Shown here: in pieces, positions 43,772-51,626 of the stretch
Numbering within the stretch: position 1 is the first letter of the stretch
Layout: every line of letters starts with the position of its first letter
From: Acanthochlamys bracteata
Lineage: Eukaryota > Streptophyta > Magnoliopsida > Pandanales > Velloziaceae
NCBI GenBank assembly: GCA_019914995.1
Contig: CM034131.1
Coordinates: 3,504,501 to 3,568,500 of the forward strand
Length of the DNA stretch: 64,000 nucleotides
Reading direction: 5' to 3'
Notes under the pieces: model-generated
Seen by the model: the letters and a program-made list of their open reading frames with translations, nothing else
Databases searched by the model: none
What the model was told of the DNA's origin: nothing
Translations under genes and position numbers: made by a program

Positions 43772-43949
43772 TTCGGGGGTGTTTGGCAGTGCGTTTGGGA
43801 AAATTTTCGTTCCCCAAACGCACTGCACAGTACATTTTGTTCGGGTAACGCGTTTGGTTGAGAAACGCTCCATTCGTTGAACCAAACGCACAGCATAGTG
43901 TTATTCCCTTATCAATTATATGTTTACTAAATATTTACAAAACGTGCCA

Positions 43950-44114
43950 TCATATAAGCATAACTTTACCTCAAACCTCATTCGTTTGCATCTCGACAGC
44001 GGCGCAGCGGCGGTGTCGATTTCTCTCGAGATCCTCCTTCCGCGCACAGCTCGCCACGGCGGTTCTCTTCGTCTGAATTTCGACGTCGGAGGAGGCGATT
44101 GACCGGAGAAAAAG
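43950..44114 (+). promoter_or_regulatory. Probable noncoding first exon of the Harbinger element
   Basis: A GC-rich patch in A/T-rich surroundings ends with a good splice donor, AAAAAG|GTACGG (donor at 44115). ORF1 begins with its ATG immediately after an acceptor (TATAG at 46609-46613). Together these suggest a 5' UTR exon spliced over a 2.5 kb intron. This is inferred; no transcript was seen. Confidence 0.45.
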
Positions 44115-45210
44115 GTACGGTTGTTCTCTTTTATTGTTTTGTTTTGTTTTTTTTTTGCTTCTCTTTGTAGATCTGTGTGTATTTGTTTTGTATAGCTTGC
44201 TTGCGAATGTGTACAGATTTGATTATCTAATATCTGTGTGTATTTTTTTTTTTTTTCTTCTCTTTGTAGATCTGTCCGATGTTGAGTTTTTTTTTATGAA
44301 GTATTGAAGTTTTCGAGCTTTGTCGTGGTATCTTACAAGTTCTTGTTTTGTAACAAGTAGAAACTTCTATTTTATTCTCCAATTTTGGATTCAGAAGTTT
44401 GTCACTGGATCTTCCAGGGAGATATGACCTGGGCTCTTGCTGATTGATATGAATTCATTATAGCTTTTGTCTTATAATAATCTGTGTTTTCAGATCTTAA
44501 GCTATTGAATTACTTGTTAAGTGAAGTTGATTTCACAAATGAAGATAAGCATTTGGAGGTAGGAATAACGGGAGCTTTTTTGTTCTCTGTCTTCTCTGTT
44601 GTTTGTTGATAAGAGAGGGTGTTGTAGTTTTTGCTTTACTATTGACGAATTGTGATTAAAAATTATGTTCGATGGGGAAATCAGAAATTATTTTTCTAAA
44701 GGAAGGAGTTAGAAATTATCGATGAATTCAAGCTTTAAATCTGTTCTTGTTGTTCTGTAGGCATTATTAAGCTTGAGTATTTCTGGTTTCATACTGCAAC
44801 TTTTTTGTAAGTGGATAATTAAAAAGTTATACTTATTTCCTGCTTTGAATTCCTTCTTTACTCTAAAGTGACTGTTGTTTATTGACACCATATATTCAAA
44901 GACATTAACTCGGTGCGTTAAACCATTTGCTGGAATGACTTTGAGAAATTTTTGAGTCATTGTTTCTTTTTCTTTTTTTTTTATAACTTTGAGGACTTTT
45001 GATTATTCTCAGTGATGGATGACACGCAGTTATTCCATGTTGATTGTATATTTCCTATGGCATTTACTTCTGCAATTGCTTGTCAAAGTAACAAAAACCT
45101 TTATTTCTTTTAGCTTAAAGCCTAGTAGTTATAAATCAAATGAATTTGCTGTTATTAGCAAAGTTGTTGGATATGTTTTCGAAATAGTTTTCTTTTCGTG
45201 TATTCGCTTA

Positions 45211-45674
45211 TGCTATTTTGTTTTAGCAATAGAATCTGATCTTTAGCAATAAAATCACAATTATCTATTTTCTATTTTAGCAAAAACAGATGCTAACCCT
45301 ACACCCTAAACTCCAAACCCCAAACCCTAAACCCTAAACCCCTAAACCTCAAACCCTAAACCCTAAACCCCTAAACCCCTAAATCCCAAACCCCAAAATC
45401 CTAAACCCTAAACCCCAAACCCCAAACCTTAAAATCCTAAACCCTAAATCCTAAACCATATGTGTTGCTGTTTTCAGCAACAGTTTTTCATATGTTTGAA
45501 AATTGGATTGGTTTCTGTTTTTGCATATGTTTTTCTGTTTTAGCAATTGAATCTGATTTTTAGCAATAAAATCATAATTACATGTTTTCTGTTTTAGCAA
45601 AATCAGATGCTATATGTATTCTTTTTTTAAACAAATTTTGGATATGTTTGAAAATTGGATTGGTTTCTGTTTTA
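45211..45674. repeat. Tandem duplication, one copy interrupted by telomere-like DNA
   Basis: About 45211-45521 and 45523-45674 are copies of one block. Each contains 'ttttagcaat', 'gaatctgat', 'tttagcaataaaatca', 'ttttagcaaaa', 'cagatgcta' and 'tatgtttgaaaattggattg'. The left copy is longer only because 165 bp of telomere-like repeat sits between 'gatgcta' and 'tatgtgtt'. The right copy reads straight through at the same point ('gatgctatatgta'). Confidence 0.8.
45294..45458. repeat. Degenerate interstitial telomere-like array
   Basis: About twenty units of CCCTAAA and variants (CCCCTAAA, CCCAAA, CCTTAAAA, TCCTAAA) follow one another. CCCTAAA/TTTAGGG is the common plant telomere repeat. The array lies in the 5' intron of the Harbinger element. 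The C-rich strand is the plus strand, the same as the transposon's coding strand. Confidence 0.9.
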
Positions 45675-45819
45675 CATTAAACTTCATACGACATGTGTAT
45701 ACTTGTATAAACTTTCACCCTACACTTTATGCTACAGGTATATGCTAGTATAGTATAAACTAGTAAAAAGTTTTTGTATGAACTTTGTACTATAAGTGTA
45801 TAATTTCTTCTGAAGAAGC

Positions 45820-46440
45820 TTTTTGAGGGCAGGGGGCGGTAGAGTTTTTGTTAGGGTGCAGGCAAGGTTGACGAATTTTTTTGTTAGGGAGGGGGGAGCA
45901 GTAGAATTTTTTTGTTAAGAAGCGAGAAAATTGTTTGTTAGAGGGGGCGAGGGGGAGTTCTACTACAAAGAAGGAGATGGTGGTTTGTTTTTTTATTATG
46001 AAATAAAAAAATATTTTGTTAGAGGGGGGCGTAGAATTTTGTTAAGGAGGGGCAGTAGAAATTTTTTGTTAGGAGGTTAAAGCAGCAGAATATTTTGTTA
46101 AAAGGGGCGATGAGAGTTTTTACCGGAGCAAGGGGCGAAATGGGAAAGTAGAGTTTTTCTGGAGGCAAGAGGGCGAGAGAAATTTTTTATTAGGGAGGCA
46201 GTAGAGGCGAGGAAGCGTAGAGAATTTTTTTTTTAAAGGGGCGGTAAAGTTTTCTCTGACAAGGGGCGATAGGGGGCGGGAGGGGGCGTTAGAATTTTTT
46301 TTGGGGCGAGGCGGAGAGTTTTCTCTGACAAGGCGCGATGAGGGCGGCGAGGGGGCGTAGAATTTTTTGGGGAAGGGGGCAGAGAGGGGCGATAGGGGGC
46401 GGGAGGGGCGAGAGAATTTTGTTAAGGGGCAGGGGGAGTA
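45820..46440. repeat. G-rich minisatellite in the Harbinger 5' intron
   Basis: About twenty loose units consist of a G-rich half (variants of AGGGGGCGGTAG or GAGGGGGCG) and a T-rich half (GAATTTTTTGTTAG). C is scarce on the plus strand. Many runs of three or more G lie close together, as at 46253-46290 and 46370-46410, so G-quadruplexes could form on the sense RNA. No coding function is seen. Confidence 0.8.
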
Positions 46441-46613
46441 GAGTTTTCATAAGTAAGTAGCATAACATAACTATGGTGAATAATTTGCGTGCTTCATAGG
46501 TAATTAGTTGATATAAGCTTATAACTGCGTAGGACTGGTTTGTTGTAATTGTTGTTATGGTAGCTTATTTACGATATTTACGACATAAGAATTTTGTTGA
46601 TTATTCATTATAG

Positions 46614-47593
46614 ATGTCTACACCAAAAAAGAAGCATCGTAGTGAAATAGCACATTGGTCGGAGATTTACTCTAGAAAATTTGTTGAACTTGCTGAAGAA
46701 GAGATTCGAAAGGGTAATAAGCCCACGACTCATTTCAATACAGAGGGTTGGAGTAACATCCGTCGTGCATTTAATGAATATTTTAGGGAGACGTACGACA
46801 AAACTCAATTCAAAAATCATTGAGATAATATGAAGACTGAATGGAAATTGTATAAGAAATTAGTCTTCGGTGAGTCAGGTTTGGGATGGGATGCTGAACG
46901 CAACACGATCATTGCTGATGATGAGTGGTGGGACGCGAAGATTAAGGTACATTAGCTGCTTGTTATTTATAAACTGTATTTTTTTTTAAATAATATTAGG
47001 TTTTAACTGATTTTTTATTATTTCTATAGGCTGACTATAAGTTGAAGAAGTTTAAGGGTAGAGATTTATCCTTAATCCGTGATCGGTACGGTCGTCTATT
47101 TGAAGATAATGTTGCGACGGGGAGCAGGGCAAGGTCAGCAGCTACAGTTGGGAGAGATGTCGCAGCTGAAGGCACGCCTAACCAGGAGGGCAGTGATAGC
47201 AGTGATGATGGTGATCAACCTCCACAAGTTGTTGCTTCTGAGCAAGATTTGTTTCATTCGAGCTCGAGGCCTGTTTCCAACACAGCCAAGAGAAAACGAT
47301 CACTGCAGGAGAGTTTGGATGCACTTGTGGATGTCATCAGTTCAAGTAGCCGGACGTCTACGGGAGTAGAGGGAGAACAAATGAACAATCAGATGAAGTG
47401 TATGCGTATGCTCAAGGAGATGGCGGGAAAGGGAATCGACCCGGGCACAATATTCTGGAGCTACTCTACGAGTCTTCTAACCAAACCAGCTAATCAGTTT
47501 GCTTTTTTAGAACAGCCAGATAATGATTGTCGTTTGGCGTGGTTAGAGTTTAGTTATAATGAGTATATGAGGAAAACATCGGGTAGTATTTGA
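46614..47593 (+). pseudogene. Harbinger ORF1, SANT/Myb-like DNA-binding protein with one nonsense codon
   Basis: Two exons, 46614-46946 and 47030-47593 (TGA stop), join in phase 0 to 298 codons. Codon 70 (46821-46823) is TGA where the family has Trp: the frame reads KTQFKNH, stop, DNMKTEWKLYKKL. The Myb/SANT-like domain spans about residues 9-105 (HWSEIYSRKFVELAEEEIRKG, GWSNIRRAFNEYF, GLGWDAERNTIIADDEWWD). The second exon is Ser-rich with a basic stretch (AKRKRS) that may be a nuclear localisation signal. In characterised Harbinger/Ping elements ORF1 is needed along with the transposase. If the stop is real this copy cannot supply full ORF1 itself. Confidence 0.85.
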
Positions 47594-47832
47594 ATTGTGA
47601 ATTTAAGTTTGGAGAATTCTTATGTTTGTTTCGTAAATATTGTACTAAGTATTTGTTCTATCGCCTTAATAAATTTATGTTTGCTGTTTGTATTGTTGAA
47701 TTCAAAGTTGTAATTTTATAATATTATTTAATATGAGTGTTAGTTAACTTATAGAGTTTTTGTGGTAATACATATGCTTATTTAGTGGTTGTTGTTTAAT
47801 ACTGATTGGTATATTTATATTTGTGTAGTGAA

Positions 47833-49064
47833 ATGAGTGACTCAGATGATTCGATGAATTTTTGGATGCCCGTTTTAGATGATCGGGTGGATGTTTCTGA
47901 AAATGATGCGAATAGCCAAGATAACGATAGTTGGGCACAAATCATAAGATGCGCTGGTTATCATGCTGCGGCTATATGTGTACACAACAAGATAAAAAAT
48001 CCGTGCCGTACATCCATACGCACAGGTCATCGATTTATTTTGGAAATATTGGAGGGAAATGAAAATCGCTGCTACTCAAATTTTCGTATGAAGAAAGATC
48101 TTTTTCTAACATTATGTCAATGTTTGACACGTGACTACGGTTTGAAACAAACAAGATCAACAACGGTCGAGGAGAGCGTTGGAATATTCCTTTTAGCTTG
48201 TGCTCATGCAACTTCAATCAGAGTACTTGGGGAGATGTTTAATCATTCGGGAGAAACAATTTCTAGGCATATTCATAAAGTGTTGAAAACTCTATTACAA
48301 TTATCAAAACAGTTGATACGGCCGCATCGCTACTATAATGAAGGGGTCATCTATCACAAACCAGAAAACACACAATATCTTCCGTGGTTTCAAGTAAGCA
48401 ATTAGTTTTTCATTATAATAGCGCATATTTTTTATAATACGAAAAATTTTTTTTGCCGATTTGAACATTGGATATTTTATTATAGGATTGTATTGGAGCA
48501 ATTGATGGAACTCATATCAAAACTAAACTGCCAATTAGTGAGCAGCTACCTTACATTTGCCGTAAAGGATATCCTACTCAGAACGTTCTTGTAGTCTGTG
48601 ATTTTAATATGTGCTTCACCTTTGTATTGGCTGGATGGGAAGGAAGTGCTCACGACAGTATGGTTTTCAGCGAAGCATTATGTAACCCAGAGCATGAGTT
48701 TCCTCATCCTTCAGGCAATAAGTATTATTTGGTGGATGCTGGTTATGCGCACAGAGTTGAGTATATGGCGCCGTATACAGGTGAAGGCATCAGATATCAT
48801 CTCAGCGATTTTCGACGTGCAGGTACAGCACAACTACGGAAACCAAGAGGTCCAAGAGAAAAATTCAACCGACTCCACTCTTCCTGCAGAAGTATTATCG
48901 AACGTACAATTGGCGTATGGAAAGCTAGATTTAAAATTTTAGAAGATATGCCACCATATAACATTGATGATCAACGAGATATTGTCATTGCTACAATGAC
49001 AGTTCATAACTTTATCGAAAAAGCGCGACGCGTCCGATGTAGCGTTTTGATGAATGAAACATGA
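47833..49064 (+). CDS. PIF/Harbinger DDE transposase (HARBI1-like nuclease)
   Basis: Exons 47833-48393 and 48486-49064 (TGA stop) join in phase 0 through a 92 bp GT-AG intron to give 379 residues. The N-terminus (SDSDDSMNFWMPVLDD) is acidic. A helix-turn-helix-like region follows (EESVGIFLLACAHATSIRVL, then FNHSGETISRHIHKVL). The catalytic DDE_Tnp_4 triad is complete: Asp in CIGAIDGTHIK, Asp in YYLVDAGYAH and Glu in SIIERTIGVWKARF. No stop or frameshift is present. The enzyme would cut and paste DNA with this family's ends. Its expression is not shown; the ATG lies just after an acceptor-like TGTGTAG at 47822-47828, so a spliced leader is likely. Confidence 0.93.
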
Positions 49065-49746
49065 AAGTTTTTCTTCACAACCGTAGAAGCATCGTGTACG
49101 CCTAACGTTACGCCGGTGAGACATAGATCTTTTGTGAAAATATTTGATTTGGCATATATATCGCGATGATATTGCTATGAGAATGTCAAATGTATAATTA
49201 TTTTTAACTGATTATTTATTCAAGCTTCTACAATTATGTCAAAAGTACAAATATTATTCAAAATAATTTAACACATAAAATAAGAAATTATTAAATACTT
49301 AAAACTTTTTCAATATTTAATAAATTATTTAACTATCAATTATTTAACAAATCTTTTAAATAATTATTTAACAAATTATTTTTTAAAATAATAATAATTT
49401 TAGTTTAAACAGTTATTTATATAAAATAATTCATTTAAATATTTTTATTTAAAAAAATCAATACAGAATTATTTTATTGAATATAATATTTTTTACATAA
49501 GTATTTTATTCAAAATAGTATCAATAATTTAGTATATATATATCAATAACTAACACAAAACACCAAAGGATAAATCAGTAATTTTTATATCTCTTTATTT
49601 GAAAAGCTGCTTATCCAAAAGTACTACCAAACACCTTTCTACAAAAGCTCCTTTTCTCTCCATTTCTCAAAAACTCTTTTTTTTTTTTCCGAAAAGTTCC
49701 TTTTCAGAAAAGCTTCTTTTCATAAGCAATCCCAAACGCCCCCTTC

Positions 49747-51626
49747 ATGCTTAGCTCTTTAACGAACTTAATTTTGAATTTTGTATTTAAGCATTTTAGG
49801 TGGGCTGCCCCAAATATCAAATGACTAATAGCATGATATAAATGACCGCAATTTCAGTAGGGCTCTTGATATAGCACTCAATCAAATATTTTTTTAGTTT
49901 CATATTTACGAGCTATTCACGAATACAATCGAAAATGCTCACATATGTTATTATCCTTTTATTTAATGATTGAGCATTCTAATTTTGTTACAAATTTAAT
50001 TCATGTTCGTGATGTGTATGCACACTTATATGCTGATGGATTAATAAACATAATATCAAAAAATAACATCAAATATTTATTTGAACTAATTCATGTTATA
50101 ATATATTTTGCTCTGGCACCTTAGTTAAAATTGAATAAAGGTATTTGACATTATTTAAAATAAAGTAGTAACACTAATACAAAGTACGAATTTATCCATA
50201 TACAAAAATTATTGGTAAGCATCAACATCTATAAATTTATAGTAGTTACCGTCAATGTTATTATTACTAAAATGTCTAATATGCTTAATGAAAATATTAG
50301 CATGATTGTTACTATTTTATTGTGTAGAATGTACAAATATCTTATATCGAATTGCCACTATTTCTTACATAAAAATAAATAAAATAACTATCTCTAATCT
50401 AAATTACTTTCTAAATTAGTTTTCAAAAACTTAGATGTGACAATATGTGACCTGATCCATGAACCCAACTCAAAACTGACACATTTAAATAAATTCGAAT
50501 TTGATTTTAGTTGAGTTCATGTTAGTTTTAGGTGAACCTGAAATTGATTCGAAAATTTAAATAAGTCTGGATCGAATTTGGATTGACTCAAAATACACAT
50601 TTTAAATATTTTTTTCTTAGTTTATCATATTTTGTTTAAGTTCTTATTTAATTTATATATTTTATCAAAATTAATATATTTTCTTGAATGAATGTTATCT
50701 AACTATTTTCACATAATATTGTGAGAAATTAATTTTATAATTCTTATTTTATAATTTTGATTATTAAATAAGTTGATCTGAATTTGATTTCATTATTAAA
50801 TAAGTTGAATTAGAGTTGATAATTTTGACATATATAAATATATCAATTGAATTATGATTGAATAATTTTAATCCGATTATTATATGAATCAATCTGAATT
50901 CAAACACATATTGCCACCCATTCAAAAACTAAAACTAAAAATCCCAAATACAATTTTTTAATAAGGATAGAGTAATCGGGCTCTTGCCTTTCTATTGTTT
51001 CATTAAAGTAACCTAAGCTTTTATTTATTTATTTATTTGTCTTGTGTTAGTTCCAAATGTTGTAAACTAAACTAAATAGTTATTAGTTTAGTAAGGATTT
51101 CTTAAAGAAAATTATTTGATGTTGGCATAAAAAAAGTACAAATATATATAAATACCGTAATTATTTTAACTTAATAAAGACAAAAATTATTTTATAACTC
51201 CAAATTATTCTTATTTTTGTTCATCCTATATTGGGTTGTGTATAACGAAATATAATGATTACTCTCTATATAATACTAATGAAGAGGATTTTTGCATTTT
51301 AATATTTTTATGAAAGAATTTCTAAACAAAAATTAAGAGCAATCGATTTATTATTCTGTTTTATTATTCATTACCTTAACGTTAATGTTTTAGATATCAC
51401 ATTTGTAAGGAAATGTTTAAAAGTATTTAATAAAAAATAATTTTTTTGAAATTAACAATATTTTAAAATTTTTTTAAATAATAAGCTCTATAAAAAATTT
51501 AAAATAAATAATAATAAAATATTATTACTTAGATCTTTTGTACAATTTAATTTTTTAAAAATTATAAAATATTATAAAAGAATTATCTAAAAAATGTGAA
51601 ATACAAGTAGAAATGAAACTCTCAAT
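49747..51626. other. A/T-rich intergenic DNA with MITE fragments
   Basis: No gene is seen. 51400-51605 resembles the core of the A/T-rich MITE at 54004-54246 (TAATAATAAAATATTATTA, then TTATAAAATATTATAAA). 50440-50930 is low-complexity repeat DNA with recurring 'gaattaatttga'-like words. 50995-51040 contains a TTTA run. Confidence 0.4.

Follow-up and report, generated by a model that had tools for sequence, protein, structure and literature searches.

A degenerate CCCTAAA array of 163 bp lies inside a Harbinger-type DNA transposon of Acanthochlamys bracteata, in the window analyzed here (the whole stretch of 64,000 nucleotides, G000:C6:3504501-3568500; assembly of 195.5 Mb in 557 contigs). The array is a short interstitial telomeric sequence, since it is made of the telomere unit, lies internally on the chromosome (C6, ~3.55 Mb of 10.7 Mb), and has an empty site in related elements. 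Three other copies of the transposon carry such an array at the same base, and all four most likely descend from one telomeric insertion at the repair of a break, followed by transposition to at least four places with divergence and length change of the arrays. Short telomeric array insertion at breaks is already established, and the window holds a clear example. The features were as follows.

43772 to 43774, no strand: target-site duplication TTC, 5' side, from the flank letters
43775 to 49743, plus strand: Harbinger-type DNA transposon holding the array, delimited by its terminal sequences and the limits of similarity to other copies
45146 to 45295, plus strand: first tandem unit left of the insertion point, ending GATGCTA
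45296 to 45458, plus strand: inserted degenerate CCCTAAA array, 163 bp, with the G strand (TTTAGGG) on the minus strand
45459 to 45673, plus strand: remainder of the first unit, then the second unit, with the empty site GATGCTA/TATGTATT near 45612
47030 to 47593, plus strand: open frame, stop to stop, upstream of the transposase, 187 codons
47806 to 49064, plus strand: transposase region, two open frames, the second (48486 to 49064) with DDE_Tnp_4
49744 to 49746, no strand: target-site duplication TTC, 3' side, from the flank letters

A sequence-only reading of the window had described a degenerate CCCTAAA array between the words "gatgcta" and "tatgtgtt." The array is real according to Tandem Repeats Finder (45295 to 45457, period 7, 22.6 copies, 80% matches, consensus AACCCTA), best local alignment of the 163 bases to perfect CCCTAAA (143 identities, 15 mismatches, 5 gap positions), and the flank letters; the length given as 165 bp was corrected to the 163 bases that separate "gatgcta" (ending at 45295) from "tatgtgtt" (starting at 45459). 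It comprises ~23 units, contains 13 AAACCC and 6 AAACCCTAA motifs, and precedes the first transposon frame by ~1.6 kb. CCCTAAA/TTTAGGG forms 4 of the 9 contig ends read (240 bases each; both ends of C6, starts of C8 and C13), and the array is therefore built from the genome's own telomere unit. The starts of C1, C10, and C14 (3 of the 9 ends) were N, the end of C13 was nonrepetitive (240 bases), and the final 240 bases of C1 (L053) were an AGGCCC hexamer repeat, not telomere repeats. Perfect telomere 21-mers numbered 1127 forward and 472 reverse; among the matches listed (contigs C2 to C4), all places except one (C3:9673155) were near contig starts. Rfam (gathering threshold) and ARAGORN scans of the window gave no match.

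Members of the PIF/Harbinger superfamily have a DDE_Tnp_4 transposase, terminal inverted repeats, and a 3-bp target duplication. The window element is Harbinger-type and shares all three; it departs from the superfamily in that its family has tandem units of ~155 bp in subterminal position, with a telomeric array in four copies. Similarity to other copies begins at 43775 and stops near 49742, and the terminal inverted repeats are imperfect (GGGGGTGTTTGGCAGTGC; other strand, GGGGGCGTTTGGGATTGC). Target duplications of 3 bp were found for the window element (TTC), L034 (TTA), and L040 (TAA), and no matching duplication was seen for L031 or L035 at their ends as drawn. DDE_Tnp_4 (PF13359) matched the frame at 48486 to 49064 with an E value of 1.3e-25, with weaker matches to DDE_Tnp_1 and Plant_tran (Pfam); the first transposase frame had no Pfam match, and a search of the transposase frame against PDB sequences (E value, 0.001) gave none. 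The frame at 47030 to 47593 is in what we take to be the position of the Myb-like Harbinger ORF1 and had no match in Pfam (E value, 0.001). A transposase-region DNA query (765 bases) gave at least 40 matches, with scoring of 40 of 186 candidates, and the family may be larger. The transposase region of the window is broken into two frames at 48405 to 48486, possibly by an intron.

The array interrupts the first of two adjoining tandem copies, a pair already described in the sequence-only reading, with a unit of ~155 bp; the units start at 45146 and 45465, the period minus the array is 156 bp, and spacing in array-free relatives is ~155 bp. The second unit runs GATGCTATATGTATT through the insertion point. 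It had been taken for the preserved preinsertion sequence and is instead a diverged paralogue (86% identity to the first over 97 ungapped bases, 81% over 151 aligned bases). What corresponds to a true empty allele is the first unit in other elements, e.g., L034: the filled element L038 and L034 share 94% identity in two alignments, of 408 and 219 bases, that flank the array and meet at one L034 base. The empty site had 19 matches genome-wide (≤3 mismatches), including the second units of the carriers L031, L035, and L038.

Unit queries of 97 and 216 bases gave 45 and 76 matches, respectively, together 24 loci including the window, out of which 21 elements were examined (the window and 20 others, ~10 kb each) and three loci were left out (C11 3.14 Mb, C16 4.05 Mb, and C17 2.60 Mb). 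The best-matching first unit held an array in 4 elements and read through without one in 17. In a looser motif scan, which also gave unrelated weak matches and missed some units, all other recognized units of the 21 elements, the further units of the carriers included, were empty. A genome-wide search for the right junction (≤3 mismatches) gave four perfect matches and no others (reversed control, 0); each lies in a member of this transposon family, and the array sits at one shared base of the first unit. A shorter right-junction query with 1 mismatch gave the same four and one place on C17 (control, 1), and an exact left-junction 13-mer gave 12 places (control, 1), i.e., the 4 carriers and 8 others; the 9 stray places had no unit match and 0 AAACCC/GGGTTT each. 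These searches detect carriers whose junctions lie within the mismatch limits and would miss one changed beyond them. The search for the array in other copies of the element, proposed along with the initial reading, has been run, and its outcome supports telomeric DNA inserted at one exact point after duplication of the unit: no recognized unit beyond the first units of the four carriers has an array.

The carriers are the window element (C6, ~3.55 Mb), L031, L035, and L038. The three others are at C13 2.65, C14 2.03, and C15 3.55 Mb, and the four arrays measure 163 (window), 248, 75, and 104 bp. Outside the element, the window flanks matched none of the other carriers, and comparison of seven flanking stretches (all carriers, without the 3' flank of L038) gave one weak match (99 bases, 73%), inverted and misplaced. 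The unrelated flanks fit transposition, not segmental duplication.

Filled copies read GATGCTA-ACCC...AAACC-ATATGT and empty copies read GATGCTATATGT, so no target base was lost and at most one was repeated. The junctions of the four carriers are identical except for one G/A difference a few bases past the right junction. On the left, all four read CTAACCC, where in-register telomeric DNA would be CTAAACCC; the shared "cta" suggested earlier as microhomology is thus one base out of register in every copy, which leaves telomerase priming at microhomology unsupported, and a one-base change in the common ancestor may lie behind the shift. Helitron ends are 5' TC and 3' CTRR, and Helitrons insert between A and T; the insertion point here is also between A and T, but the insert starts ACCCTA and ends AAACCA, and a Helitron insertion was rejected.

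Most likely, telomeric DNA was captured at a double-strand break; here we infer the break itself, the capture by end joining, and where the repeats came from. A double-strand break inside a Harbinger-type element would have been repaired by end joining that captured telomeric repeat at the end of the first ~155-bp unit, with no target bases lost; telomerase, a telomere fragment, and copied telomeric RNA are candidate suppliers of the repeats. The element would then have transposed, taking the array to at least four places, where the arrays would have diverged and shifted in length, largely through gain and loss of whole heptamers. A genome search for two CCCCTAAA units in tandem gave five places (the window, L031, and three near contig ends) and identified no source array.

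Telomerase might instead have healed a broken 3' end in the element, adding TTTAGGG units before rejoining, which we regard as possible though rather doubtful. The array motif is the telomere repeat of the genome, the accessible text of PMC7215372 gives such healing as the model for mammalian insertions, and for single plant telo boxes a role of telomerase is proposed by Gaspin et al. (accessible text of PMC3022908). Against it, on the G strand the receiving end ACATAT is followed by GGTTTAGG, with 0 bases in register in all four carriers (with the preceding base, CACATAT in the window, L031, and L035 and TACATAT in L038), and the other side, GGGTT/AGCATC, is one T short of register, again in 4 of 4. 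In the horse data, as given in the accessible part of PMC7215372, at least one in-register base was present in 31 of 40 informative insertions and none in 9 of 40, so the out-of-register junction is weak evidence against telomerase. An array grown by slippage from a short chance seed in the unit appears improbable: the arrays of the window and L031 do differ in length by whole units, but the empty site reads GATGCTATATGTATTG and has no CCCTAAA-like seed within it. Array loss fares worst. Uneven loss from one copy had been offered as the other explanation of the window, and it is unsupported with 17 of 21 elements empty and no recognized further unit filled; an ancestral array lost from all other copies and units is highly improbable, for although lengths do vary (75 to 248 bp among four copies), repeated losses would be needed in 17 elements and in paralogous units, each restoring the same joined sequence, and the midpoint root of the transposase-region tree has empty elements to either side.

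A single gain of the array in the four carriers is favored with modest support. In the transposase-region tree (20 rows; L043 dropped, having no match there; midpoint root), a single change accounts for the carriers, with support 75/81; 74% of bootstrap trees agree, and 0 of 500 shuffles gave so low a count. The support is below the threshold of 80 for drawing the fork. Unit trees (21 rows; 209 and 369 columns; 10 and 6 of 18 inner branches open) read differently: the first-unit tree left the carriers ungrouped, with 3 changes (81 of 500 shuffles as low), the longer-stretch tree needed 2 (6 of 500 shuffles as low) and placed the empty L034 among the carriers at 91/81, and one-change bootstrap trees were 0% in both. 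Two insertions at the same base, one in L038 and one in the ancestor of the other three carriers, would suit these unit trees and the different sequence just upstream of the unit in L038; we judge them quite unlikely, given the one gain favored by the transposase tree, the near identity of both junctions, and an element 5' end common to all four carriers. That end (43775 to 44403) is present in each carrier whole or in large part, and similarity in the 17 empty elements reaches no further than its first ~58 bases; carriers do not have it to themselves, because it is also found in elements without tandem units. Variant units point to one descent of the arrays, CCCCAAA and CCCCTAAA occurring in the window, L031, and L035 (absent from L038) and the array start ACACCC in the window and L031 only. 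The arrays are ~7 to 12% off perfect repeat and the carrier branches from the carriers' ancestor measure 3 to 7% in the transposase tree, a ratio between ~1 and 3.4 when taken carrier by carrier, which may mean that the insert was not a perfect repeat to begin with or that the arrays mutated faster.

The 5' part of the window element up to ~45147 matches an element (L069 and the match on C2, C2:7442k) with no units in the stretch covered, which gives the window element the look of a chimera between two 5' architectures. This 5' part is also matched by L031 and L035, and L038 has the same 5' end joined to the upstream sequence of ordinary unit-bearing elements; with L069 and C2, these mixed architectures suggest that the element family recombines readily. 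Gap repair after excision would be a plausible occasion for both the array insertion and the 5' recombination. Inside the element at L069, positions 761 to 791 (L069:761-791) are a 31-base, 87% match to the transposon 5' terminus, as though a terminus had been copied into the interior.

The accessible text of PMC7215372 describes short interstitial telomeric sequences (s-ITS) that arose by insertion at double-strand breaks in primates, rodents, and horse. The array resembles them as a short internal telomeric run with an empty site in relatives and an unchanged target (11 of 66 horse loci were without target change, same text). It differs from the s-ITS of that text in being in a plant, inside a DNA transposon, multiplied by transposition, and compared among paralogous transposons, and from most of the horse loci given there in having no in-register bases at the break. 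Plant telo boxes share the heptamer, a proposed telomerase origin, and AAACCCTAA motifs, but occur as lone short motifs in 5' gene regions, whereas the window has an array (accessible part of PMC3022908). A review, in its accessible text, names mobile elements as a possible route for large heterochromatic blocks; here too a mobile element moves telomeric repeats to new places, but the array is short and has both filled and empty copies. The family would thus show, in a specific case, telomeric repeats being spread by a DNA transposon, a route named there as possible. In the open-access literature (including accessible parts of PMC7215372, PMC3022908, PMC6410037, PMC9498494, and PMC8449440), with few subscription journals covered, no description was found of a DNA transposon from a plant that has a telomeric array inside it and also copies with the empty site. 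Because filled and empty copies abound in one genome, the insertion can be polarized, set on a tree, and followed in its length change; mammalian work did such polarizing by comparison of species or alleles.

It is conceivable, though we think it a long shot, that the array acts as a cluster of telo boxes upstream of the transposon genes, binding telomere-repeat-binding Myb proteins and altering silencing or expression. If so, the element would spread docking sites for telomere proteins through the genome.

Downstream of the tandem units, the window has G-rich degenerate tandem repeats at 45829 to 46470 (units like GGGGGCAGTAGAATTTTTTGTTAG), a stretch that gave short, differing aligned pieces between element copies, and the GC skew is 0.39 over 46001 to 48000. 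A separate dispersed repeat at 50600 to 50894 of the window recurs at 73 to 75% identity in L040, where it is inverted and lies upstream of the element, and inside L049.
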